Assembly (NCBI GenBank): GCA_031261565.1
Contig: JAISJK010000014.1
Location: 1 to 33,342, forward strand
Reading direction: 5' to 3'
Origin: Candidatus Adiutrix sp.
GTDB taxonomy: Bacteria > Desulfobacterota > Desulfarculia > Adiutricales > Adiutricaceae
Length of the DNA stretch: 33,342 bases
Part shown: positions 1,437 through 30,234 of the stretch, piece after piece
How the letters are laid out: each line of letters begins with the position of its first letter
Numbering within the stretch: the stretch's first letter is position 1
The notes under the pieces: generated by a model
Database searches by the model: none
What the model was told of the DNA's origin: nothing
The model's input: the letters and a program-made list of their open reading frames with translations, nothing else
Position numbers and translations under genes: made by a program

Positions 1437-3560
1437 ATGATGACTGAATCAATCAACAGCCAGAGCGCCCTCCCGGCCGGAGCCAAGCTCGGCTCTTACC
1501 GCATAGCCGAGGAACTCGGCCGGGGCGGATTCAGTATCACTTACCGGGCTTTAGATCTGAATCTCAATCGCCCGGTAGCGGTTAAGGAGTTTTTCCCAAA
1601 GGATCTGGCCATACGTCGTTCCGGCCAGTCTGTGGGGCCGCATTCAGAGAGCGCGGCCCAAAATTTTCAAAATGGCCTGGATTCTTTCCTAAAGGAAGCC
1701 CAGACTCTGGCCCAATTCAATCACCCAAACATTGTCCCGGTGCTGAACTTTTTCAAAGCGGCCAATGATACGGCTTATCTGGTAATGCCCTTCCTGGCGG
1801 GAGATACTTTAGCGAACAGCTTGGCGAAGCGCCCAGACGGCCGAATGAGTGAAGCTGAAGTTTTGATTTGGCTAAGGCCTTTATTAGATGGTCTCCAAGC
1901 CATACATGCCGTTGGCTTGCTGCATCGCGACCTGAAACCGGAAAATATATTTTTACAGGAAAATGGCAACCCTATCCTGATCGACTTCGGCGCGGCCCGG
2001 AACGCCCTGGCCAATCACAGCCGCAATCTGAGCGTGGTGCTGACCCCCGGTTACGCCCCGGCGGAGCAATACACCTCCTCGGCCGCTAATCAGGGGCCGT
2101 GGACTGATTTATACGCTCTGGGGGCGGTGATATTCCGCTGCCTGACTGGAAGGGAACCCATAGACTCAACCGAGCGGCAGGATGCCCTCACTAATGGGGA
2201 GACAGACCCCTTAGCTCCCGAACTTAGGAGTCTTTCTCAAGTGGCCAGCCCGGGCTTGACCCAGGCTGTGGAAGGTTGCTTGCGGGTGGTCAGGAAAGAC
2301 AGAATTCAGGGTGTGGCGGAGTTGAGGCAAATTCTGAGCACCAATCAAGCTCAGCCCGGTAAAGCCTCTTCTGATTTTACTCAGGTTCTGAATCACACGG
2401 CAAAGCCCTCGGTTCCTCCGAGTTTTCAGCAGGTCGAAAATGAGGACGAGAGGCATGGCAAGATGGCCATAATCTGCGCCCTCATTGTGCTGGCAATAAT
2501 TGGAGCTTACTCTTTTTCCCGGTTTAACCGGGTGGAATATTCCCCGCAAGTCAAAGCTCCAGATAACAGCGGCTATGGCTCCCACAGCACTACCCCTGAA
2601 GAAACAGAACAATACCCAGCTCAGAGCGATGTTGAGAGAGAGGCGGAGCGGGCCAGGGAGGCGGAGCGGGCTAGGGAGGCCGAGCGAGCCAGGGGAGCGG
2701 AACGAGCCAGGGAAGCGGAACGAGCTAGAGAAGCAGAACGGGCCAGAGAGGCGGAGCGAGCTAGAGAGGCGGAACGAAAATCTGAGGCTCTCTTTAATTT
2801 AGGCCGGCAATACGTTAGCGGGACAGGCGTAGCCCAAAATATGGCTATGGGCGTTCAATACTACCAGCAGGCGGCCGATCTGGGCCATGCTGGAGCCCAA
2901 GGCAGTCTGGCCTGGATGTATTTAAAAGGGCTCGGAGTTCCTCAAAACAAAACGCGGGCCACTCAATTATATCAACAATCGGCCGATGGGGGGTATGCCA
3001 ACGCTCAATTTGACCTGGCCCGAATGTATCTCAAGGGCGATGGGGTCACCCAAAATATATATTTGGCCGCCAAATATTTCCAAATGGCGGCGGGTCAGGG
3101 ACACGCCGGTGCTCAAGCCAGTTTGGGCTGGATGTATGCAACTGGGTCAGGTGTCCCCCCAAATGTGACCTTGGCTGCGCAATGGTATCAAAAAGCGGCC
3201 AATCAGGGAGATGCCAACGCTCAATACGACTTGGGTTTACTTTATGACGGCCAAGGCGACTATGCCAAAGCAGTCTCCTGGTATCAAAAAGCGGCTGGGC
3301 AGGGCCATGCTAATGCTCAATGCGTCTTGGGCGTCAAGTATTACTTGGGAAAGGGCGTGGGCAAGGATTTAAAGAAAGCTGGTGTGTGGTTAAAAAAATC
3401 AGCTGATCAGGGCAATGCCCATGCTCAATTCTGTTTAGGTGTGCTATATGAAAACCCTCCTGGTTCCTATAAAATGGCTCTCTTTTGGTACCAAAAAGCG
3501 GCCGCGCAGGGGCACTCAGACGCTCAAAAGGCTGTAAGTCGCTTAAGGCAATATCGATAA
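1437..3560 (+). CDS. Ser/Thr protein kinase with transmembrane segment and Sel1 repeats
   Basis: A complete 707-aa Hanks-type kinase. Visible kinase elements are the glycine loop (G28-G30-G31), VAVK with Lys50, the helix-C Glu87, HRDLKPEN with Asp165 and Asn170, DFG at 183-185, and the APAE segment near 207-210, so it should be catalytically active. A single hydrophobic span sits at about 343-361. After it come eight six-residue EAERAR-type units (402-449, likely a charged helix) and about seven Sel1 repeats (roughly 450-700) with typical GxGVxxN and AxxGHAxAQ features. The Sel1 part is probably periplasmic and binds proteins or cell-wall components; that is inference. It starts 14 bases after the kinase-RDD gene. 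A second ATG directly follows the first, so the start could be one codon later. Confidence 0.93.
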   Translation: MMTESINSQSALPAGAKLGSYRIAEELGRGGFSITYRALDLNLNRPVAVKEFFPKDLAIRRSGQSVGPHSESAAQNFQNGLDSFLKEAQTLAQFNHPNIVPVLNFFKAANDTAYLVMPFLAGDTLANSLAKRPDGRMSEAEVLIWLRPLLDGLQAIHAVGLLHRDLKPENIFLQENGNPILIDFGAARNALANHSRNLSVVLTPGYAPAEQYTSSAANQGPWTDLYALGAVIFRCLTGREPIDSTERQDALTNGETDPLAPELRSLSQVASPGLTQAVEGCLRVVRKDRIQGVAELRQILSTNQAQPGKASSDFTQVLNHTAKPSVPPSFQQVENEDERHGKMAIICALIVLAIIGAYSFSRFNRVEYSPQVKAPDNSGYGSHSTTPEETEQYPAQSDVEREAERAREAERAREAERARGAERAREAERAREAERAREAERAREAERKSEALFNLGRQYVSGTGVAQNMAMGVQYYQQAADLGHAGAQGSLAWMYLKGLGVPQNKTRATQLYQQSADGGYANAQFDLARMYLKGDGVTQNIYLAAKYFQMAAGQGHAGAQASLGWMYATGSGVPPNVTLAAQWYQKAANQGDANAQYDLGLLYDGQGDYAKAVSWYQKAAGQGHANAQCVLGVKYYLGKGVGKDLKKAGVWLKKSADQGNAHAQFCLGVLYENPPGSYKMALFWYQKAAAQGHSDAQKAVSRLRQYR
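2640..2783 (+). repeat. Eight in-frame 18-bp tandem repeats encoding EAERAR
   Basis: Eight imperfect 18-bp units lie head to tail inside the Sel1 kinase gene. Each encodes EAERAR; one unit reads GAERAR and the last reads EAERKS. Unit length is a multiple of three, so gain or loss of a unit changes linker length without shifting frame. Synonymous differences between units (gcg/gca, cgg/cga, gag/gaa) show that they are not a very recent expansion. Confidence 0.9.
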
Positions 3561-3579: not shown

Positions 3580-4755
3580 GTGGAAAGTCAAATAATTGAA
3601 TGGAAAGAATCGTGGCGCGACGACTATCTGAAATGGATCTGCGGCTTTGCCAATGCGCAGGGCGGCCGATTAGAGATTGGCCGGAACGACAAGGGCGAAA
3701 TTGTTGGGCTTTCTGACGCTAAAAAGCTACTCGTGGAACTGCCGAACAAAATTCGCGCGACAATGGGCATTGTGGCCAACGTGAATTTGGGCCGCGAAGC
3801 CGGGCGCGAGTATATTGTGGTTGAGGTCGGGGCACATCCCAACGCGATCAGCTATCGGGGCAAGTATTATTTTCGCTCCGGCAGCACCAATCAGGAACTG
3901 ACAGGTTTTGCGCTTGATGAACTGATATTCCGCAAATATGGGCGAACATGGGACGCTGTGCCCGTGCCTCATGTCAGGGTCGATGATTTCTACCACGATG
4001 CTTTTGACATTTTTCGCAAAAAAGCTGTGGCCAGCAATCGCCTCACCAAGGAGGATGTTGCGGGAAGCGACGCAGACCTATTGAAAGCTTTGAAACTGAC
4101 CGAGGGCGATTATCTGTTGAAAGCGGCACTCCTTTTGTTTCACCAAGACCCTGACCAGTGGTGCTTCGGCTCGTTTATTAAAATAGGCTTTTTCGCCAGC
4201 GATGCCGATTTGCTGTATCAGGACGAAATCAACGGCCCGCTCATTGGTATAGCCGACCGGGTGTTGGATACTATTTATATAAAATATTTCAAGGGGTTGA
4301 TTCATTATGAAGGTATTCAGAGAGTTGACCACTACCCGATGCCCCGTGATGTTTTGCGCGAGGCTGTTTTGAACGCCATTGTGCATAAAGATTATATTAC
4401 TGGCAATCCAATTCATATCAAGATCTACGATGACAAAGTGATCATCTACAATGATTGTCAGCTTCCAGCCAATGTTAAGCCCGAAAACCTGCTGGCCGGG
4501 ATTGGCTCAAAACCGCATAACCCGCTGATAGCCGGGACATTTTTTCGTTCAGGACAGATTGAGGCCTGGGGGCGCGGCATTGAGAAGATGAAAACCGGCT
4601 GTGCCGCCGATGGCTTGCCCGAGCCTGAGTTTGATATTAGACCAACTGACTTTGCGATTTGCTTCCGAATCCGGAATAACAATAACGCCCATAACGGAGA
4701 TATAATTTGTTCCTCTAATGGTAGCGGAACAAATGGCGGAACAAACGATATTTGA
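3580..4755 (+). CDS. AlbA_2/Schlafen-type ATP-binding regulator, apparently truncated at the C-terminus
   Basis: This 391-aa protein starts at GTG with a strong upstream Shine-Dalgarno (acaggagg, 3563-3570). The N-terminal ~130 residues are an AlbA_2 (Schlafen-like) nucleic-acid-binding domain, recognisable from the ESQIIEWKESW opening, GFANAQGG and the YYFRSGSTNQEL segment. Residues ~240-360 are the RecG-related HATPase_c_4 domain, with the signature around LREAVLNAIVHKDY and the GRGIEKM segment. Family members usually continue after an NGGTN-rich linker into a winged helix; here the protein stops just after that linker (NGSGTNGGTNDI). An in-frame ATG follows the TGA immediately, but what it encodes does not look like a winged helix. 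Its GC content is visibly lower than that of the genes after 4.8 kb, suggesting horizontal acquisition. Likely a transcriptional or stress/defence regulator; target unknown. Confidence 0.82.
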   Translation: MESQIIEWKESWRDDYLKWICGFANAQGGRLEIGRNDKGEIVGLSDAKKLLVELPNKIRATMGIVANVNLGREAGREYIVVEVGAHPNAISYRGKYYFRSGSTNQELTGFALDELIFRKYGRTWDAVPVPHVRVDDFYHDAFDIFRKKAVASNRLTKEDVAGSDADLLKALKLTEGDYLLKAALLLFHQDPDQWCFGSFIKIGFFASDADLLYQDEINGPLIGIADRVLDTIYIKYFKGLIHYEGIQRVDHYPMPRDVLREAVLNAIVHKDYITGNPIHIKIYDDKVIIYNDCQLPANVKPENLLAGIGSKPHNPLIAGTFFRSGQIEAWGRGIEKMKTGCAADGLPEPEFDIRPTDFAICFRIRNNNNAHNGDIICSSNGSGTNGGTNDI

Positions 4756-8476: not shown

Positions 8477-8494
8477 TTGAGGAATGGCCAAACT

Positions 8495-9499
8495 GTGAGA
8501 GAAAATCTTTTGGGGCCCGAGCCGGGCCCGGCCGCTTTTGACGCTCTCTACCGGGCCGGGGCCGAACCCCTGGCCGGGACTGACGAAGCCGGGCGCGGGC
8601 CCCTGGCCGGCCCGCTGGTGGCCGCCGCCGTCATTTTGGATCCCGGCCGGGAGTATCCCGGGGTGACTGATTCCAAAAAGCTGAGCCCGGCCGCCCGGGA
8701 GCGGGCCTATGAGCTCATCACGGCCCGGGCCCTAGCCTGGGCCTGGGCCGATCTCCCGGCCGAAGAGGTGGATCGCCTGAATCCGCTCCAGGCGGCTATG
8801 ACCGCCATGGCCCTGGCCGTGGACAAATTGCCGCTGAAACCGGCCCTGGTGCTGGTGGACGGCCACACTAGGCCGGCCCTGGCCGGAGCGGTCAAAACCG
8901 TGGTGCGTGGCGATGGCCGCTCGCTTTCCATCGGGGCGGCCTCCATCGTGGCCAAGGTGGTGCGGGACCGGCTGATGCTCGAGTGGCACGAGCGCTATCC
9001 CCAATATGGTTTTGACCGCCACAAAGGCTATGGCACGGCGGCCCACCTGGCGGCTCTTCGCTGCCACGGCCCCTGCCCCTGCCACCGCCTGTCTTTCCGG
9101 GGCGTTCAGCCTGAGACTGAAGCGCCGACTGCGGATCCGCGCCATGAGCTGGGCCGCTGGGGCGAGGAGCTGGCCGCCCGCTACCTGGAGGGCCTGGGCT
9201 ATCGGGTGGTGGAACGCAATCTGACCAACGCTATTGGCGAGCTGGATCTGGTGGCTCTGGACGGGGCCACGGTGGTGGTGGTGGAAGTCAAGACCCGCCG
9301 CCGGGTTGAGCGGGCTCCGGCCGAGGCGGTCAATTTTCGCAAACAGCGCCAGTTGACCAGGGCCGCCTCACTCTTTCTGAAAAGCCGCCGCTGGCTGGAG
9401 CGGTCGGCTCGCTTTGATGTGGTGGAGGTGTTCTGCCCAGCCGGGGCCCCGATGCAAATCCGCCATATCAAAAACGCCTTTGAGGCGGCCGGGTATTAA
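8495..9499 (+). CDS. rnhB: Ribonuclease HII fused to a YraN (UPF0102) nuclease-like domain
   Basis: Residues ~10-205 are RNase HII, which removes ribonucleotides and RNA from RNA-DNA hybrids. The catalytic acids are visible: Asp30 and Glu31 in TDEAGRGPLAGP, Asp122 in LVDGH and Asp158 in VVRDR, plus DSKKLS and the FDRHKGYGT region. Residues ~218-334 are a YraN-type domain of the restriction-endonuclease-like fold, with GRWGEELAARYL, IGELDLV (Glu249, Asp251) and VEVKTRRR (Glu264, Lys266). The two are usually adjacent separate genes; here one uninterrupted frame covers both, with no stop or internal start with a clear ribosome-binding site at the junction. GTG 8495 is preferred (GAGG 8479-8482 upstream); TTG 8477 is an alternative giving 340 aa. 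rsmI begins 3 bases after the stop. Confidence 0.92.
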   Translation: MRENLLGPEPGPAAFDALYRAGAEPLAGTDEAGRGPLAGPLVAAAVILDPGREYPGVTDSKKLSPAARERAYELITARALAWAWADLPAEEVDRLNPLQAAMTAMALAVDKLPLKPALVLVDGHTRPALAGAVKTVVRGDGRSLSIGAASIVAKVVRDRLMLEWHERYPQYGFDRHKGYGTAAHLAALRCHGPCPCHRLSFRGVQPETEAPTADPRHELGRWGEELAARYLEGLGYRVVERNLTNAIGELDLVALDGATVVVVEVKTRRRVERAPAEAVNFRKQRQLTRAASLFLKSRRWLERSARFDVVEVFCPAGAPMQIRHIKNAFEAAGY

Positions 9500-9502
9500 A
9501 GC

Positions 9503-10360
9503 ATGGCCGAGGATCGGCCGCGCCCCGGCGAACTGACCCTGGTGCCCACCCCCCTGGGCCACCTGGGCGACTTGACTCTGCGGGCCGTTGAAACGCTCAG
9601 AACCTCCGACCTGGTGGTGGCGGAGGACACGCGCCGCAGCGTGAAGCTTCTGAATCACCTGGGGCTGCGCGTGCCCCTCCAGAGTTACCGGGAGCAGAAT
9701 CATCACCGGGCCTGGCCTCGAATCGCCGGGGTGCTGGCGGGCGGGGGGCGGGTGGCCCTGCTGACTGACGCCGGGGCCCCGGGCGTCTCTGACCCCGGCG
9801 CGGCCCTGGTGACTGCCGCCCGGGCCGCTGGATATGCGATTGCGCCTCTGCCCGGGCCCTCGGCGGTCATCACCGCGCTGATGGCCTCCGGCCTGCCGGC
9901 CGGCCGCTTCACTTTCGCCGGCTTTCTGCCGGCCCGGGCCCGGGAGCGGCGCGAGTTCATAGCCGCCTTGACCAGCCATCCCTGGACCCTGGTTTTTTTT
10001 GAAACGCCCCATCGGCTGGCCGGGGCCCTGTCCGACCTGGCTGAAATCCTGGGGCCGCGCCCGGCCCTCCTGGCCCGGGAAATGACCAAAGTCCATGAGG
10101 AATATCTGGCGGCCAGCCTGGCTGAGCTGGCCGTCGAGGTTAAAACCAATCCCCGCAAAGGGGAGATGACCATTGTGGTTGAGGGGGGCAGGGCGATCGC
10201 CCCCGGCCCCCTGGATCTTGGCTATGTGCGGGACTTGGCCCGGCGCGACCCCCGCTCCACCCGATCCCTGGCCGCCAGCCTGGCCGCCGAGACGGGGCGG
10301 GGTCGGGGCGAAATTTATCGGCTGATCCTGGCGGCCCGGGCGGACAATGGCGGCCAGTGA
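9503..10360 (+). CDS. rsmI: 16S rRNA (cytidine-1402-2'-O)-methyltransferase
   Basis: RsmI uses S-adenosylmethionine to methylate the 2'-O of C1402 in the decoding centre of 16S rRNA. The 285-aa length is normal. Family motifs are in order: LVPTPLGHLGDL near 13-24, VAEDTRRS at 39-46, LTDAGAPGVSDPG at 87-99, PLPGPSAVITAL at 115-126, and FFETPHRL in the middle of the protein. The tetrapyrrole-methylase fold is complete. It lies immediately after the YraN domain, the usual genomic neighbour of rsmI. Its last 14 bases overlap the start of the RnfC-like gene, suggesting shared transcription with the Rnf-like pair. Confidence 0.95.
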   Translation: MAEDRPRPGELTLVPTPLGHLGDLTLRAVETLRTSDLVVAEDTRRSVKLLNHLGLRVPLQSYREQNHHRAWPRIAGVLAGGGRVALLTDAGAPGVSDPGAALVTAARAAGYAIAPLPGPSAVITALMASGLPAGRFTFAGFLPARARERREFIAALTSHPWTLVFFETPHRLAGALSDLAEILGPRPALLAREMTKVHEEYLAASLAELAVEVKTNPRKGEMTIVVEGGRAIAPGPLDLGYVRDLARRDPRSTRSLAASLAAETGRGRGEIYRLILAARADNGGQ

Positions 10361-11438
10361 GGTTATCAAAGAGTGGGCCGCCGAGGGGGAGGTGGCCGTC
10401 CCCCTGGCCGGAGCTGAGATGCTCAGGGGCCTGAGGCGGGGCCGGCCGGTCTCGGCCGGGGAGCGCCTGGCCCGCCACCCGGATCCGGCCGCCGGCGATA
10501 TCCACGCCTCAGTCAACGGCTGGATCAGCGAAATCAACGAATGGGAAATAGTCATCGCTCGCGATGAGGCGGCCGTGGGCCGGCCGCCGGAGCCCGTCAG
10601 CCTGGCCGCCCTGGAGAGACCGGAGCTGGGGCCGGCCCTGAAAGAGCTGGGGCTGGCCCGGCCGGCTGTTCAGCCCGGCGAAACCATTATCATCAGCACT
10701 CTCGACCCGGAGCCCGGCCTGACCCTGGCCCGGCCCCTGTTTGGCGAGCACCGGGAAACCATGCTGGCCGGGGTGGAGGGCATCGCCCGCCTCTACCCCG
10801 GCCGGGATCTCCTCTGGGCGGTCAACCGGGCCGAAGAGGCCCCGCCCGGCACCGAGTTTCACCTTATTAAAGGCGATTACCCCCGGACTCTACCCTCCCT
10901 CTTGAAAAAGAAAATAACCGGGCGGCTGGATCGGGCCGGGAGCGGCGTCCTGACTGGGCGGGCTATCTTCTTTCTGGGCCGGGCCTGGCGGACGGGTTTG
11001 CCGGTCATCCGCACGCCCCTGACCCTGGGCTCGGCCAATTATCTGGCGCCGGTGGGCGCCCGGATTATGGATCTGTTGACCTTTGCCAACCTGGCCCCCG
11101 GGCCCGGCGATCTGGTGGTGGCCGGCGGGCTGGTGCGGGGGGTGACCCTGGCCCGCCTGGAGCGGGGGGTTAGCCCGGCGGTGGCCGCCCTGCATCTGGT
11201 TCGCAGCGGCCGGGCAGCGGCGGACGATATCTGCCGGCAATGCGGCGAATGCGCCCGGGTCTGCCCGGCTGGTTTGCCCATTGACCGCCTGGCCCGCCGT
11301 GACCCGTCCGCCTGGCTCAGTCAACCCGGCTGGGAGGCCCTGACCGGCTGCCTGGTCTGCGGGGCCTGCGCCCTGGCCTGCCCGGCCCGGCGGCCGCTCC
11401 TGAGTCTGATCCGGCTGGTTGAAGGGCTAAAGCTATGA
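10347..11438 (+). CDS. RnfC-like 4Fe-4S protein, reduced form
   Basis: This 363-aa protein keeps the order of an RnfC subunit. An N-terminal barrel-like segment ends in IHASVNGWISEI (the HAxxxGxV region of RnfC). A middle region follows with DPEPGLTLAR in place of the usual ECEP motif, then a central domain. Two ferredoxin-type sites come last: Cys296/299/302/306 and Cys335/338/341/345, each followed by Pro. RnfC normally takes electrons from NADH through FMN. The glycine-rich start of the barrel and the YPQGGEK-like motif of typical RnfC are absent or changed (YPRTLP here), so NADH oxidation is doubtful. The protein is also shorter than usual. It overlaps rsmI by 14 bases and the next gene by 4 (ATGA), so it probably forms a complex with that gene's product. 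Confidence 0.75.
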   Translation: MAASEVIKEWAAEGEVAVPLAGAEMLRGLRRGRPVSAGERLARHPDPAAGDIHASVNGWISEINEWEIVIARDEAAVGRPPEPVSLAALERPELGPALKELGLARPAVQPGETIIISTLDPEPGLTLARPLFGEHRETMLAGVEGIARLYPGRDLLWAVNRAEEAPPGTEFHLIKGDYPRTLPSLLKKKITGRLDRAGSGVLTGRAIFFLGRAWRTGLPVIRTPLTLGSANYLAPVGARIMDLLTFANLAPGPGDLVVAGGLVRGVTLARLERGVSPAVAALHLVRSGRAAADDICRQCGECARVCPAGLPIDRLARRDPSAWLSQPGWEALTGCLVCGACALACPARRPLLSLIRLVEGLKL

Positions 11439-12664
11439 CCCCGGCCGATCCCTCCGGGCGGTCGCTGGCGACCGGCCCTTATCTCAGGCCGGGCGGCCTG
11501 GCCGGTGATAATTTAAGGCTTCTGGCCCTGATGGGGCCAGGGCTGTTGTGCAGTCTCCATCTGCGCGGCTCAGCCTCGGTCTGGGCCTGGCCCCTGGGGC
11601 TGGCCGGAGCCTTGCTGGGCCTTTTGGCCATAACCCGGGAGCGCCGCCGGGCGGTCTGCCGACTGGATTGGGCCGTGGCCGCCACCCTGCTGGCCCCGGC
11701 CCTGGAATTCAGCGGTTTACCCGAGCCGCGCCTGCTGGCCGCCGAGCTCATCGGCGGTTTGGGCTGCGGATTGCTGATCAGTCGGCCGGGCTGCGGTTCC
11801 CGGCTTTGGTCAAGGCCCGGCCCACCGCCCCTTCTGGTCTGGTTGGCGGCCTTCATCGCAGCGGGGCTGACTCTAGAAATCTGGCCGCTTGAGGGCCAGG
11901 TCACCTGGGCCGAATTGGGGGCCTGGGCTACCGCCGGGCTAGGCTTCGCGGCCGGCTGGCGATCGGGCTGGCCTCTGGCCCTGCCCGGGCTGGCCGCTCT
12001 GGCTCTTCACCTGGCCTGCCCCGGCCCGGCCTGGGGTTGGCTGGCCAGCCTGCCTCCCCCCCTGTTTTTTATCTTCATCTGGCCCCGGTCTGACCGTCTT
12101 GGTAACAGTCTTGGGTGGCCGGCTGAGCCGGCCGCCCCGGCTCTTTCAGCTGATCGGGCCTGGCTCCGCTGTGGCCATCAGGGCCGGGCCCCGGTTCTGG
12201 CCGAGTGGCTGGGCCTGCCCAGTTGCCGCCTCAACGCCTTAAACGACGACGGTCACCTGGTCTGCCCCTATGGTTGCTCCGGCCTGGGCGACTGCGTCCG
12301 GGCCTGCCCCCGGGGGGCCATCAGCTTGGAGCAGGGGTTCCCCCAACTTGACCAGAGCCGTTGCCTGGGTTGCGGCCGGTGCCGGGCCGCTTGCCCCAAA
12401 GGCCTTTTAATCCTGGCCCAGGGGAAGGTCAGGGCTTTTATCCCCTGCGCCTCGCGCTCCAGCCTGAAGAAAAGCGCCGCCTATTGCCCCGGAAGCTGCC
12501 TGGGCTGCCGCCGTTGCCGGAAAGCCTGTCCGGCCCAGGCCATCACCCGGGACGAGAGCGGGGTTTTAACCGTCAATCAGGCCCTCTGCCAGGGTTATGG
12601 CGATTGCGGGCGGCCCTGCGCCGCCGCCTGTCCCCGCCGCATCATTCAGCCTCAAAGCATTTAA
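11435..12664 (+). CDS. Membrane domain (degenerate RnfD-like) fused to RnfB-type polyferredoxin
   Basis: Residues ~28-217 form about six to eight hydrophobic spans whose layout resembles RnfD, although the RnfD sequence motifs, including the flavin-attachment Thr segment, are not recognisable. Residues ~245-405 closely follow the RnfB ferredoxin region. The motif CPYGCSGLGDCVRACP has the unusual RnfB spacing (Cys277/281/287/291). It is followed by Cys310/313/316/320, Cys351/355/358/361/365 and Cys385/391/395/399, enough for up to four 4Fe-4S clusters. The N-terminal NCGACG-type cluster domain of normal RnfB is missing. It probably passes electrons between a soluble partner and the membrane together with the RnfC-like protein; whether ions are pumped is unknown. 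The start overlaps the upstream stop (ATGA). The 3' end overlaps the convergent kinase gene by 23 bases. The RnfD relationship is my inference; the RnfB part is clear. Confidence 0.75.
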   Translation: MTPADPSGRSLATGPYLRPGGLAGDNLRLLALMGPGLLCSLHLRGSASVWAWPLGLAGALLGLLAITRERRRAVCRLDWAVAATLLAPALEFSGLPEPRLLAAELIGGLGCGLLISRPGCGSRLWSRPGPPPLLVWLAAFIAAGLTLEIWPLEGQVTWAELGAWATAGLGFAAGWRSGWPLALPGLAALALHLACPGPAWGWLASLPPPLFFIFIWPRSDRLGNSLGWPAEPAAPALSADRAWLRCGHQGRAPVLAEWLGLPSCRLNALNDDGHLVCPYGCSGLGDCVRACPRGAISLEQGFPQLDQSRCLGCGRCRAACPKGLLILAQGKVRAFIPCASRSSLKKSAAYCPGSCLGCRRCRKACPAQAITRDESGVLTVNQALCQGYGDCGRPCAAACPRRIIQPQSI

Positions 12665-16560: not shown

Positions 16561-18195
16561 TCACTCCACGTCAATCCAGCCGGTGCAGGCCTTGACCTTT
16601 TGCGGTTGGGGCTGGCCGGCCAGGCGGGAGACCACCCGGTCATTGCTCATCATAATCCGGTAGCGTCCCTTCTGGTGAAAAGTGATCAGGCCGCCGGCGA
16701 CCTCAGCTTTTTCCGGCGGGGTCGGCAATTTTTGCTCATTGAGGATGGTGAAGGTGGTCGGACAGCCGTCCAGGCTGGCTTCGGCGCTGAGATCCAGCCG
16801 CCGGGGCCGGTCAGGGGTCAGGGTCAGGCGCTCAAACAGCACCCGGGTCTGGGGGCCCAGGACAGTCTGGTCTTTGCCCCGGCCCACGCACTGGATCAAA
16901 GCGCTCAGGGGCAGACGGCAACCGCCCAGGTTGAGCTCTTTTAAAGAGGCCAGCTGGTTCTCCCGGATAATGATTTCCCCCAAAGGGTTATTGTCCGCGA
17001 TGAGGCGTTCCAGACTCTCATTATGGCTGATATCCAGCCTGGTCAAGCGGTTTTTGGAGGCGTAGAGGCGCTGGAGCTTGAGGTTGGCGGTCAGGTCAAG
17101 CTCTTCCAGCCGGTTTTGGGACAAATCCAGGATCATCAGTTGGCTGTTGGCCGACAAATCAATCCGGCCGAGGCGATTGACGGCCGCGTAGACATACCAC
17201 AGACCGGTGTTGCGGCTCAGATCCAGAGACTCGATCCGGTTGTCGGCCAGATCCAGCGTCCGCAAATCCCGGCTCTGGCTGACCACCAGCCGCTCCAGAA
17301 CATTGGCCGAAACCACCAGATGGGTCAGGGCCGTCTGGCTGGTCAGATCCAGCTCCCGGAGGCGGTTGCCTGAAGCCGCCAGATACCACAGCTTATTATT
17401 GCGGCTAAGGTTCAGGTCTGTGAGGTTGATATTGGAAAGATTGGCGTAGGCCAGCTCGGTGTTTTGGCTGAGATCGAGTTGGCCGCTCTCCAGATGGTTG
17501 TCGGCGAGGTTCAGGGTTTCCAGGCGCGGGCAGAGGCTGGCCTCCAGCCCGGTCAGCCGGTTTTCATAGGCGGCCAGATAGGCCAGGTGGCGGCAGGGGC
17601 TCAGATCCAGCTCAGTCAGGTGGTTGGTGTCCACGATCAGACGCCTGATTTGGGGGGTGCCGGACAAGTCCAGGCTGGTCAGGCGGTTGCGGCCGACGCA
17701 CAGGGTGGCCAGACTTTTGTTCCGGGAGAGGTTGATTTCCGTCAACTGGTTGCCGGTGGCGTCCAATTCCACCAGATCCGGCGCTCCGCCGAGGTTGAGC
17801 TTAACCAGACGGTTGCCGCTGCAGTGCAGTTCCCTGAGGCGGCGGTTGTCATCGATAATCACCGCCTCCAGCCGGTTTTGAGAGATATACAGCCGCTCCA
17901 GAGAGCTCAGGCCGCTTAAATCCAGCACTGATTTCAGATCGGTCTGGCAGAGATTGAGGCCGGCCAGGTATTCCTGGCTGCCGCTAAACCACTTGACGCC
18001 CCGGTTCCAGCGCAAATCTTCGACCACTTCCCATTCCTCGGGCCGGTCGGCCGGCCACAGGGTCAGGCCGTTATTCAAGGTCAGACGAAGGATGAACCCC
18101 AGGGAGAGGGGGTCGTAGGCCAGATCCGTATCCCGGGTCAGGGAGCGCCAAAAAAGGCTCAGCAGCTTTAAGCGCTTTCTCAAAGGGTTGGTCAT
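16561..18195 (-). CDS. Leucine-rich-repeat protein without a signal peptide (21-residue repeats)
   Basis: A 544-aa protein with about sixteen 21-residue repeats, LxxLxxxxNxLxxLDLSxxxx, from ~80 to ~420. An N-terminal cap contains RGVKWF. A C-terminal domain of ~125 residues begins at LNLGGCRLPLSAL and ends near TGWIDVE, including the motif GRYRIMMSND. The same cap and C-terminal domain occur in the other two LRR proteins of this window. The start of the protein (MTNPLRKRLKLLSLFW) is basic and only weakly hydrophobic, so I see no convincing signal peptide, unlike its two relatives. It may be cytoplasmic or exported another way. Its start overlaps the upstream LRR stop (ATGA), and the HD-GYP gene follows directly. 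LRRs bind proteins; the partner is unknown. Confidence 0.88.
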   Translation of the reverse strand: MTNPLRKRLKLLSLFWRSLTRDTDLAYDPLSLGFILRLTLNNGLTLWPADRPEEWEVVEDLRWNRGVKWFSGSQEYLAGLNLCQTDLKSVLDLSGLSSLERLYISQNRLEAVIIDDNRRLRELHCSGNRLVKLNLGGAPDLVELDATGNQLTEINLSRNKSLATLCVGRNRLTSLDLSGTPQIRRLIVDTNHLTELDLSPCRHLAYLAAYENRLTGLEASLCPRLETLNLADNHLESGQLDLSQNTELAYANLSNINLTDLNLSRNNKLWYLAASGNRLRELDLTSQTALTHLVVSANVLERLVVSQSRDLRTLDLADNRIESLDLSRNTGLWYVYAAVNRLGRIDLSANSQLMILDLSQNRLEELDLTANLKLQRLYASKNRLTRLDISHNESLERLIADNNPLGEIIIRENQLASLKELNLGGCRLPLSALIQCVGRGKDQTVLGPQTRVLFERLTLTPDRPRRLDLSAEASLDGCPTTFTILNEQKLPTPPEKAEVAGGLITFHQKGRYRIMMSNDRVVSRLAGQPQPQKVKACTGWIDVE

Positions 18196-19523
18196 GGCCG
18201 GGCACCGCCGGGGGCGGCTACTTCAACTAGGCCGGTGTGAGCCTTAACCTTGAAACGGCGCTGGTGGCCGGAGAGGCGGTTGGCGTCGAGTACCGAATCA
18301 TTGGTCATCATCACCAAATAGCGGCCGGGCTGGAGAAAAGTCAGCCGGCCGCCTTCCTCATGATAGACCTCGGGTTTGACCCGCCGTTTTTTATCGGTCA
18401 GCACAGTATAGATCGTGGCCGACCCTCCCAGTTGGGCCTCGCTGGAGAGATCAAGGGTCGCGCCCAGATCCAGGCGGAGATGCTCAAAAAAAACCTTGTC
18501 CTGCGAGCCCAGATGGTTGCGTCTTTGCGCCCGGCCCACCAGAGGCAGCAACTGGCTCAGGGGCAACCGGCCCCCGTCCAGATTCAGGTTGAGCAGCCCG
18601 GCTAACGGGTTATCGCCCAGGGTCAGAGAGGTCAGTGGGTTCTGGGCCGCGTCCAGGCTGGTCAGGTGGGGGCAGGGGCTGATATCCAGGCTGGTCAGCT
18701 GGTTGCGGCTGACGGCCAGCTCGGCCAGCTTCGGTGTGGGGCGGAGATCCAAGCTGGTCAACTGGTTGCCGCGCACCGCCAGTTCCGTTAAATGGGGCTG
18801 GCCGGAAAGATCCAGACCGGTCAGCTGATTATAAGAAAGGGTTAAATGGGTCAGGGCCTGATTCGGCGACAGATCCAGGGTGGTCAGGTGGTTGTTGGCC
18901 GCCTGCAGGCTGACCAGTTCCCGGTTGTGACTTAAATCCAGCTCTTTTAACTGATTCTGGGAAATGGACAGCTCTTTCAGGTGGGGGGTGGCTGCCAGCT
19001 CCAGACGGGTCAGCTTATTGCCCGACAGGGCCAGGGTGGTCAGCGCCGGCGTTTCCTCAAGTTGCAGGGTGGTCAGCTGGTTGTGCTGGGCCATCAGATT
19101 CGCCAGGGCCGAGTCGCCGGCCAGATTCAGGCCGCGCAAATGATTGCCGTAGACTTCCAGCCGCTCCAGGCTGGTCAGGCCGCTGAAGTCAGCCGCCCGG
19201 CTGAGGCCCTGGTTGGCCAAAAGGAGGGAGGTCAGGCGGGCCGGAGCCTGGCTGCGATCCCAGCGGACGCCCTGGGCCGGCCGCTCCGGGGTGAAATTAT
19301 CCGGCCGGGCCGGGCTCTCCGGCCAAGTGGCCGGGGCTTGGGGTGCCCAGCCGCGCAGACTGTTGAGCCTAACCAGATTCTCCAGGACTTCCTGAGCCCG
19401 CTTTTCGTAATCCTGATCCCAGCCCTGGGCGGAGAGGGGCCGAACCCAGACCGCCAGGGCCAGGAGAAGGCCGACCAGCCCCAGGGCCGGTTCCAGTCTG
19501 GTTAGGGCCTTAATTTTGGTCAT
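18192..19523 (-). CDS. Secreted leucine-rich-repeat protein (21-residue repeats)
   Basis: A 443-aa protein with an N-terminal signal peptide: basic residues, then LVGLLLALAVWV, and a likely cleavage after LSAQG or nearby. After a cap containing GVRWD come about ten 21-residue repeats (LxxLxxxxNxLTxLDLSxxxx). The C-terminal domain shared with the neighbouring LRR protein starts at NLDGGRLPLSQL and includes LTFLQPGRYLVMMTND. No LPXTG, Por-type sorting tail or lipobox is visible, so it is probably periplasmic or released. Its first 14 bases overlap the end of comM, and its stop overlaps the next LRR start. The two LRR genes probably arose by tandem duplication and then diverged in repeat number. 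Confidence 0.9.
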   Translation of the reverse strand: MTKIKALTRLEPALGLVGLLLALAVWVRPLSAQGWDQDYEKRAQEVLENLVRLNSLRGWAPQAPATWPESPARPDNFTPERPAQGVRWDRSQAPARLTSLLLANQGLSRAADFSGLTSLERLEVYGNHLRGLNLAGDSALANLMAQHNQLTTLQLEETPALTTLALSGNKLTRLELAATPHLKELSISQNQLKELDLSHNRELVSLQAANNHLTTLDLSPNQALTHLTLSYNQLTGLDLSGQPHLTELAVRGNQLTSLDLRPTPKLAELAVSRNQLTSLDISPCPHLTSLDAAQNPLTSLTLGDNPLAGLLNLNLDGGRLPLSQLLPLVGRAQRRNHLGSQDKVFFEHLRLDLGATLDLSSEAQLGGSATIYTVLTDKKRRVKPEVYHEEGGRLTFLQPGRYLVMMTNDSVLDANRLSGHQRRFKVKAHTGLVEVAAPGGARP

Positions 19524-27570: not shown

Positions 27571-28716
27571 ATGACCATGATGACTGATGTTCAGACCACA
27601 AGTCAACAGCTCAAAGAGGCCATGATCCAGAACAGCCTGAGACGCCACCCTCTGGCCGCCGGCCTGGGCCTGAGCGGCGGGCGCGGGCCGGAAGGCTTTA
27701 TGATCGGCGGTGAAACATCTATCCCGGCCCTGGGCCAGGGCAACACAGCCACCGGGTTTCAGGATCTCCTGGCCAATGTTGAGGCTAACGCCCAAGCGGC
27801 GGCCGCCGGAGCTCTCTCCAGCCGGCCGGTCGAGACCGGGCCCGCCCGCAACCTGGCTCAAGTCAAGGCCATGAATCTCCGCAATGAAATGCTGAGCGGC
27901 CTGATTGACCTGGATCAGGGCGGTGAAGACGGATCCAAGGGCCTGGTCGGCCATATGAACCTGGAGGCCCTGGTCAGCTCCGGCAATTTCGGCAATCTGC
28001 TCGGTCTGCGGGGGAGCCGGCCAGGGGTTGACACCGGAAAAACTTTCACTAAAGAGCAGATGAGTTCCTACCGTCAAAAAAATGGCCAGCTTAGATCGGA
28101 CAAGCAGGGGGCTAGTCTGGCCGGTTTCGATCTGGAGGCCGGTTTGAAAATGGCTTCCGGCCTGATCAAGCCGTCCAAGCCGCCCCAATCGCCCGACTCT
28201 GACCAGTGGATTGAAGACCCCCTGGCCACCGGCCGGCCTCTGGAGCAGGATCTGCCCGCCACCGCCGTATCCGCCTCGGCTGAGGAGGATGACGATGATT
28301 TCAGCCGCCGAGATCTGGAAGAACTGGTGGAGCAGGTCAGCCGGTCAGTGGGTCTGGATGCCAACCTGATTATGGCGGTCATCAAAACCGAGTCAAATTT
28401 CAACCACAAGGCGGTCTCCAAAGCCGGGGCCAAAGGCCTGATGCAGCTCATGCCCGGCACGGCCAAAGACCTGGGGGTCACTAATCCTTTTGACCCGGCG
28501 GAAAATGTCCGGGCCGGGGCGACTTACCTAAAAAGGATGCTGAACCGCCACAAGGGCAATATCAATAGCGCCCTGGCCGCCTACAACTGGGGCCCGGGCA
28601 ATTTTTCACGCTACGGCCAGGGCGGTAATATGCCCGGCGAAACCAGGCGTTACATTAAACAGGTCAATCAGCACTACGCCAGTTTCAAAAAGGCCGACAA
28701 CGGCGCTCAGGCTTAA
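27571..28716 (+). CDS. Lytic transglycosylase (SLT domain) with long unstructured N-terminus
   Basis: The C-terminal ~130 residues of this 381-aa protein are an SLT/goose-lysozyme-like domain. Its catalytic Glu274 lies in IKTESNFN, followed by [29 protein letters not shown] and [10 protein letters not shown]. It should cleave peptidoglycan glycan strands. The first ~240 residues are low in hydrophobic structure, with no signal peptide or lipobox, so export must use another route. Flagellar rod/hook assembly enzymes of the FlgJ type use the flagellar export system, and the sigma-54 promoter upstream would fit flagellar regulation; both points are inference. GAGGGAG precedes ATG 27571 at good spacing. 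The stop codon shares the TTAA palindrome with the convergent LRR gene. Confidence 0.88.
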
Positions 28717-30182
28717 TCGTCGCTTCTTTCCGGCCCGGGGCTGAAGAGGGCCTGGAGAGCCCTGACCCGCCCGGGGTCGGCGGCCGGCGCCTCCACATAG
28801 CCCCGGCTGGTCAATTCCCTGACCAATTCCCGGTTTCCCGGCCTCTTTAAAGTCTCCGGCTCGGCGGTCACCCCCTCCACTATCAGGAAATAGCCGGTGG
28901 TGGACGAGGCCCCGGCTATCCGGCTCAGTTCGCCGCTGGTCAGGGTCAGACGGTAGAGGCCGGGGCGCTGAAAGGTCAGGCGGCCGGGCTGGCCGGCCTT
29001 TTCCGGCGGGGCATAGGCGGCCCCGCCCGGGTCATCGCCCAGCACCCGTCCGTCACTGGCCACCTCCCCGATCAGGGCGTCTTCCGGCGGAACATCAAAG
29101 CGGTCAAGTTTGCTCAGGAGTTGAACCCTCAGCCCGAAATAGACGTATTGCTGATCGCGCAGAGAGAGGTTGACTCCCTCGGGCAGGGCCCCCAGCACGG
29201 TTTTCATGGCTTTTAAGGGGAGGCAGTTGTTTTGCAGCTCCACCACAGTCAGATTTTCCAGACCGGCCAGCGCGGCCACCGGGAAGCGGGCCAGGTGGTT
29301 GCCGGAGAGGTCGAGGAGTTTGAGGGCTTTCAGTCCGGCCAGGGCGGCCGGGGCCAGGCGGGTGAGGCGGTTATGGCCCAGGTCTAGAATTTCCAGCCGG
29401 GTCAGGCCGTTAAACAGCCCCTCGCCGATTTCGGTCAGGCGGTTGTCCGACAGTTGCAGAGAGACCAGAGTTTTCAGCGGGGCCAGGAGCCCCGGTTTTA
29501 TTTCGGCCAGGCGGTTGCGGCTCAGATTCAGGGTTTCCAGGGCGGTCAGGGCCGGCAGCGCCAACCCGGCCAGGGTTTCAATCTGGTTGTGGCGCAGATC
29601 AAGGCTGACCAGGGGGGGCCGGGCCGGCCAGGAGCCCTGGAGCCTGGTCAGGCCGCCCCCGGTCAGGGTCAGGCTCAGAAGGCGGCTCAGGCCGGAAATG
29701 GTCAGGCTGGCGAAGGGGTTGCCCTCGGATTTAAACTCGGTCAGGGCGTCAGCCCCGGAGATGTCCAGGTCGCCGGTCAGGCCCAGCGGCTCCAGGGTCA
29801 GGCGGCTCAGGCGGCCTTCGGGGTCGGCCTCCAGGCCCTCCCCGGACAGATCCTCGGAACCGAACCACTTCAGTCGGCCGTCAGGGTCGTTTTGGTGCCT
29901 CAGTTTTTTTAAGAGGGCCACATCCCCCGGGTCAGTGACCAGATGGGGCACCCGGCTTTTCGACAGAGAAGTCTGCACTTCTTCAGGATAGATGGTCAGG
30001 GCCGGGACGGCTTCGGCCGGCATCTCAGAGAGGCCCCCTAAACCAGGCGGGGGGGTGGTGGGCGGCAGGGGCGCCCCCGCCGGGGCCTGGGCGGCCAGGC
30101 TGGCTGGAGCGGCCAAAGCCAGGCCGCAGAGCAGGAGCAGGGCGAGAGCGGGCCGGCGATTCTGATTCCTGAAGCATCGCAT
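28713..30182 (-). CDS. Secreted leucine-rich-repeat protein (longer 23-24-residue repeats)
   Basis: A 489-aa protein counted from ATG 30182, which gives a good signal peptide (basic start, then [19 protein letters not shown]). An ATG at 30227 would place 15 residues before it and is unlikely. A Pro-rich stretch and a cap containing RLKWF lead into about eight to nine LRRs. The later ones follow the longer LxxLxxLxLSxNxLxxI form rather than the 21-residue form of the two LRR proteins at 16.5-19.5 kb. The C-terminal region (NNCLPLKAM, later [18 protein letters not shown]) is clearly related to theirs, followed by an extra tail of about 50 residues. It is monocistronic as far as visible. Partner and function are unknown. 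Confidence 0.88.
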
Positions 30183-30234
30183 AATAGTCCCAGAATACAA
30201 TTGGGGCCGGTAACTGTCAACCGGCAATGATGAT

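Follow-up and report, generated by a model that had tools for sequence, protein, structure and literature searches.

The canonical Rnf complex consists of six subunits, RnfC, D, G, E, A and B. What, then, does a locus represent at which only two Rnf-like genes stand side by side? We addressed this question for Candidatus Adiutrix sp., using positions 1 to 33,342 of contig JAISJK010000014.1 (assembly GCA_031261565.1; this whole stretch is referred to as the window). Here, an open reading frame (ORF) for an RnfC-like protein (ORF1) is followed by one for a fusion of a membrane domain to an RnfB-type polyferredoxin (ORF2). The original prediction, made from the bare sequence of the window, had delimited this pair and noted that the two frames overlap by ATGA; the coordinates, the pair and the overlap were all borne out by an ORF check. 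As judged from its sequence relationships, the pair is a reduced descendant of Rnf. Its features are as follows (FMN, flavin mononucleotide).

10347..11438, plus strand: RnfC-like gene (ORF1), 363 amino acids, without the NADH/FMN loop
11232..11264, plus strand: [4Fe-4S] site 1 of the RnfC-like protein (C296, C299, C302, C306)
11349..11381, plus strand: [4Fe-4S] site 2 of the RnfC-like protein (C335, C338, C341, C345)
11435..12664, plus strand: fusion gene (ORF2), 409 amino acids, with RnfD-like arm, membrane domain and RnfB polyferredoxin
11435..11497, plus strand: N-terminal arm with a G-P-[YF] motif, by RnfD alignment the putative counterpart of the RnfD arm buried in RnfC
11498..12100, plus strand: membrane domain, probably a shrunken RnfD (hhalign against RnfD and a weak Foldseek match)
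12170..12631, plus strand: RnfB polyferredoxin with 20 conserved cysteines, C246 to C399, likely ligands of five [4Fe-4S] clusters

The assignment of ORF1 to RnfC is supported at the level of both profile and fold. ORF1 matched the RnfC model TIGR01945 with an E-value of 2.8e-20 (far under the curated cut-off), and the profile of its family matched the RnfC structure 7zc6 in the PDB with an E-value of 2.2e-31. The AlphaFold2 (AF2) model of ORF1 (predicted local distance difference test score, pLDDT, 89) retrieved RnfC in Foldseek with an E-value of 3e-21; its best PDB matches were the RnfC chains of Clostridium tetanomorphum, Azotobacter vinelandii and Acetobacterium woodii, at query-based template-modelling scores (TMq) of 0.80-0.84. 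All eight cluster cysteines are invariant among 18 family sequences, in agreement with the predicted RnfC-type protein with two ferredoxin sites. The NADH/FMN motifs GGAxFP and NGxECEP, described in the original prediction as degraded or missing, are absent from the RnfC-like protein of every family member. Within the genus, the alignment of this protein covers four named loci, from Candidatus Adiutrix metagenome-assembled genomes, Ca. Adiutrix intracellularis and Deltaproteobacteria bacterium Smac51.

The C-terminal part of the fusion is equally clear. Residues 240-405 of ORF2 matched the RnfB model NF005503 with an E-value of 2.5e-39 (under the curated cut-off), and a profile of the polyferredoxin matched chain 9eri_B with an E-value of 1.2e-42. 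In the 30 family fusions, as far as they contain the region, the 20 cysteines are kept with a single exception, a substitution to F in one genome (G006), and the same set occurs in one Desulfovibrio-type RnfB from a full Rnf. In C. tetanomorphum, RnfB comprises two two-cluster ferredoxin domains and a fifth cluster, which is ligated by two cysteines of a segment at the RnfC interface and two of a linker (PMC9588780). Since C246 and C264 precede the first ferredoxin domain of ORF2 and C338 and C351 lie between the domains, an arrangement that fits this pattern by alignment order, the polyferredoxin likely carries five clusters. The RnfB ferredoxin region that had been recognised in the fusion was therefore correct, but the earlier estimate of up to four clusters was too low. 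The membrane domain of ORF2 occupies the place of RnfB's own transmembrane helix and NCGxCG cluster (FdI): the fusion family has neither this helix nor an NCGxCG motif, and its first conserved cysteine is C246. This confirms the predicted loss of the NCGACG domain.

Are the missing subunits encoded elsewhere? None of 37 family genomes, that of Candidatus Adiutrix sp. included, yielded the RnfA/E domain (PF02508), although the same search recovered it in control genomes and in 15 of 23 relatives at the level of order or class. The FMN-binding domain of RnfG (PF04205) was absent from all 28 family genomes searched. A search of the whole genome for a complete rnfCDGEAB set found no RnfD/NqrB (PF03116), PF02508 or PF04205; ApbE, the flavin-attaching enzyme, was not found there either and is sporadic across the family. 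The predicted absence of RnfA, E and G is thus a property of the family, and because it was tested family-wide it does not depend on one assembly. As the genome is 95% complete, it is very unlikely to hide a full Rnf. One might still suppose a complete Rnf in disguise, with RnfA, E and G too divergent to be recognised, the more so as the membrane domain of the fusion is itself so divergent that Pfam misses RnfD in it. We regard this as very improbable: the search readily detects RnfA/E in related classes, and the covalent-FMN domain of RnfG is missing together with the ApbE of this genome. Lacking RnfA, E and G, the NADH site and FdI, the pair is not an Rnf complex but a reduced descendant of one.

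From which Rnf the pair descends was indicated by phylogeny. In the RnfC tree the family forms one clade, which is sister, with 100/100 support, to RnfC of relatives within the phylum (f45) that carry a full C-D-G-E-A-B operon. These RnfC proteins are likewise devoid of GGAxFP and NGxECEP, whereas canonical RnfC proteins have both. The layout of the operon matches that of the Rnf of Desulfovibrio alaskensis (PMC4215793), from which we infer that the f45 class is Desulfovibrio-like; in D. alaskensis this Rnf, RnfCDGEABF with the decahaem cytochrome DhcA, is needed for energy conservation through an ion gradient (PMC4215793). The RnfB tree left the sister full Rnf unresolved and did not contradict the RnfC tree. 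With the Desulfovibrio-type Rnf the pair also shares the identical 20-cysteine set and the pattern of the last cluster in RnfB, and a gene order of the type C-D-...-B. It differs in that the Desulfovibrio type has RnfD, RnfG, RnfE and RnfA, in most copies also a cytochrome c, and retains the transmembrane helix and the NCGxCG cluster of RnfB. Because the NADH motifs are also missing from this related, full-operon Rnf, loss of the NADH site was not part of the slimming; a motif-less sister RnfC in a cytochrome-linked operon implies that loss of the NADH site preceded that of the pump core. The slimmed-down, Rnf-derived unit of the original prediction accordingly stands as far as the protein families, their family-wide conservation and the lack of RnfA/E/G are concerned, but not with respect to the NADH site.

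Short second or third RnfC copies hinted that reduced pairs might also occur in the Desulfovibrio-like class. This was rejected: each of the 15 further RnfC copies examined from the class has D, G, E and A next to it, and most lie behind a cytochrome with 4-10 haems. Genomes of this class (L139-L148) often have two or three complete Rnf operons with differing cytochromes (4-5 or 10 CxxCH motifs), and some of their RnfB proteins reach about 700 amino acids.

Next we considered the membrane domain of the fusion. Hydropathy predicted three spans in ORF2 and 3-8 across its homologues, so that the six to eight spans originally proposed are not a firm figure. A profile of 29 family members aligned with one of 43 RnfD proteins, N-terminus to N-terminus, at a local E-value of 3.1e-4 and a score of 36.3 (all hhalign E-values given here refer to single comparisons); the scores were 13-14 for reversed sequences, 11.5-12.3 for RnfA, RnfE and the major facilitator superfamily (MFS), and at most 14.0 for 100 column shuffles. 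Global alignment with 58 RnfD proteins spanned both proteins and yielded an E-value of 2.8e-5 (reversed control, 0.27). The result varied with the input: few or unclean RnfD sequences gave marginal E-values of 0.017 and 0.09, a cleaned RnfD set together with more family members gave 3e-4, and Desulfovibrio-type RnfD proteins alone brought no gain (local E-value 0.041). Most of the RnfD signal of the fusion lies in its N-terminal arm. The AF2 model had low confidence over the membrane part; Foldseek with this part returned RnfD (8rbq_D, probability 0.85) and urea transporters (probability 0.91), both at E-values of about 1. These were the best membrane-type PDB matches of the ORF2 model and lend weak support, urea transporters being known relatives of RnfD (PMC12174285). 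The fold in question, that of NqrB/RnfD and urea transporters, is a membrane fold of ten helices built as an inverted repeat. None of 18 fusion members scanned had a Pfam match to RnfD. Taken together, the profile-level similarity and the weak fold match make the proposed RnfD ancestry of the membrane domain probable, in spite of the missing Pfam match. At first the domain was read as the N-terminal half of RnfD, joined to RnfB by one deletion from rnfD into rnfB; the global alignment, being better than the local one, fits a shrunken whole RnfD equally well.

The arm itself is informative. In C. tetanomorphum the RnfD arm is buried inside RnfC at the interface with RnfB (PMC9588780). The proline of the arm motif, [GA]-P-[YFH], is invariant in the alignment of the fusion family, and the RnfB-type protein of Smac51 (L106:9146-9844 in G003; 232 amino acids) keeps the arm at its start and has no predicted membrane helices. 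Both observations suggest that the fusion is built to hold RnfC, and the Smac51 pair is possibly a soluble version of the complex. In another genus (g7; L120, L121, L122, L123) the fusion carries a long, repetitive, low-complexity N-terminal extension, in ORFs of 661-1655 amino acids.

The arrangement is not confined to the window. RnfC-like and RnfB-type genes adjoin each other in 28 family genomes, the window counted, and mostly overlap or abut; such recurrence is not chance, and the same fusion thus stands beside an RnfC-like gene in relatives. The RnfC-like profile found strong matches in 22 of 25 family genomes; a single-sequence scan of the genome contigs with ORF2 gave no matches. The two genes of Ca. 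A. intracellularis are found on different contigs, the RnfC-like gene intact and the fusion running open to a contig end, which indicates that both were kept after their separation. For five pairs of relatives, the ratio of non-synonymous to synonymous substitution rates (dN/dS) was about 0.23-0.49 in the RnfC-like gene; in the polyferredoxin it was about 0.18-0.38, and the membrane domain had values of about 0.37-0.68. The pair is hence under purifying selection, which is weakest on the membrane part. Adjacency in 28 genomes and purifying selection led us to reject an assembly accident.

The same data bear on decay. The suggestion that the pair is a decaying paralogue of a complete Rnf located elsewhere failed, since no complete Rnf was found, the cluster cysteines have been conserved and dN/dS values lie well under 1; the accompanying argument, that the kept cluster cysteines speak against decay, holds for all 20 plus 8 of them. 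Signs of a remnant being lost do exist in one 1.5-Mb genome of the Adiutrix genus (G002), where the RnfC-like gene is broken and continues in a second frame (L125:449-1508) and the fusion protein was not found, and in the fast-evolving membrane domain (dN/dS about 0.4-0.7), which Smac51 has lost. Given cysteines conserved in some 30 species, selection on the RnfC-like gene and the polyferredoxin, and the 28 genomes with the pair, decay as an account of the whole family is largely refuted and has hardly any probability left. Downstream of its broken RnfC-like gene, G002 encodes an HdrA-like protein with an added pyridine-nucleotide oxidoreductase part. The pair has been retained over long evolutionary time with all but one of the Fe-S 'wire' clusters, and it therefore probably performs a job that has not been described.

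What might this job be? The reading that we tentatively prefer, at close to an even chance, is a membrane-attached, flavin-free and non-pumping relay from ferredoxin to a further partner. The RnfD-type arm of the fusion would plug into the RnfC-like protein, and the polyferredoxin would pack on the latter as in Rnf structures to give one membrane-attached complex. Ferredoxin would donate low-potential electrons into the RnfB-type clusters, and a partner docking at the RnfC/membrane face would give or take electrons, all without flavins, NAD(H) or ion pumping. More specifically, the five clusters of RnfB may pass electrons directly to the two of RnfC and on to the partner in what would be a lineage-specific former pump; we hold this to be possible but somewhat doubtful. 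The NAD-independent Rnf of Methanosarcina acetivorans, in which RnfB is proposed to act as a wire that links ferredoxin to RnfC (PMC4023990), provides a precedent; it differs from the pair in having RnfG, the other subunits and a cytochrome c outlet.

Several points weigh against such a relay. In Rnf, electrons reach RnfC solely via RnfA/E, RnfG and RnfD, and in C. tetanomorphum the closest carriers of RnfB and RnfC are 25 Å apart (PMC9588780). This gap is too far for direct transfer, so either the packing has changed or the RnfC clusters serve another partner. Without its first 21 residues, the arm, the RnfD similarity of the fusion drops to an E-value of 0.06. No RnfC-like homologue was found in three of the 25 family genomes (G008, G020 and the 93%-complete G011), and no conserved partner gene was found beside the pair in the family neighbourhoods compared.

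One candidate partner is complex I. Over the stretch that was read, the operon in the genome of Candidatus Adiutrix sp. (G000:C10, L130:5191-16001) encodes NuoA, B, C, D, H and more membrane subunits, and E, F and G are missing from it; the sole NuoF-type gene is located on a different contig (L131), with NuoE-like and hydrogenase-like ORFs next to it. As one NuoH was found in each of the 19 family genomes searched and RnfC is related to NuoF (PMC9588780), the pair could be the ferredoxin input/output module of a complex I that lacks its NuoEFG NADH module. We nevertheless find this quite unlikely: the complex I genes are not near the pair, G011 has complex I and no RnfC-like gene, and the RnfC-like protein is without the flavin/NADH site that makes NuoF useful. 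Alternatively, the complex might serve signalling or maturation by reducing an Fe-S regulator or enzyme, as does Rsx for SoxR in E. coli, a regulator-reducing Rnf homologue to which PMC4215793 refers by citation. Such a role requires no pump, and it would suit a pair with no fixed metabolic gene neighbour. It is unlikely all the same; textbook knowledge has it that E. coli Rsx retains all six subunits.

The surroundings of the pair vary by genus, that is, the pair is conserved and its neighbourhood is not. Its upstream neighbour in the window is the following.

9503..10360, plus strand: rsmI-type 16S rRNA methyltransferase gene, overlapping ORF1 by 14 bp

The rsmI gene directly precedes the pair in four other genomes as well (G001, G003, G004 and G006), all of the same genus; in other genera an MFS-type transporter gene, read from sequence, takes this position. 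As the upstream gene changes between genera, rsmI probably does not belong to the unit. Further upstream, a single ORF at 8477-9499 reads as RNase HII with an apparently fused YraN-type domain. The RNase HII of Ca. A. intracellularis has an ORF of its own, 232 amino acids long. A serine/threonine protein kinase with Sel1 repeats (1437-3560) adjoins a Schlafen/AlbA_2 protein (3580-4755). Leucine-rich-repeat proteins, several of them in this one 33-kb window, are encoded at 16561-19523 and 28713-30227 (called by Pfam for 18192-19523 and 28713-30227 and by eye for 16561-18195), and the first group is adjoined by a hybrid sensor kinase and an HD-type response regulator.

Compared with the canonical Rnf complexes of C. 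tetanomorphum (7zc6), A. woodii (9eri) and Azotobacter (8ahx), the pair shares the RnfC fold with its two C-terminal clusters, the five-cluster RnfB core and the RnfD-type arm. It is without the [2Fe-2S] switch of RnfA/E, the FMN of RnfG, recognisable RnfD flavin sites and the NADH/FMN site of RnfC, and in the Adiutrix fusion a membrane domain replaces FdI and the anchor of RnfB. Na+-NQR, also an Rnf descendant, has in NqrA, its RnfC counterpart, likewise lost the NAD and FMN sites (PMC4014512), but it dropped RnfB and its clusters and kept the pump core, the reverse of the Adiutrix pair. The pair thus mirrors the proposed origin of Na+-NQR. In the openly accessible literature we found no description of a reduced Rnf of this kind.

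Rnf is usually regarded as an all-or-nothing pump of six subunits; the Adiutricaceae keep just the Fe-S input and docking subunits. Annotation matches to rnfB or rnfC should consequently not be taken to mean that a sodium or proton pump is present. The pair makes it possible to test electron exchange between RnfB and RnfC without a membrane shuttle, and the role of RnfC once NADH is unusable. The members of the family are putative acetogens that live in the guts of insects and millipedes and do not reduce sulfate (PMC9137090, PMC10823672), and the way in which the putative acetogens conserve energy is of interest. If the proposed relay is correct, a primary ion pump would have been turned into a simple ferredoxin relay in these insect-gut putative acetogens.

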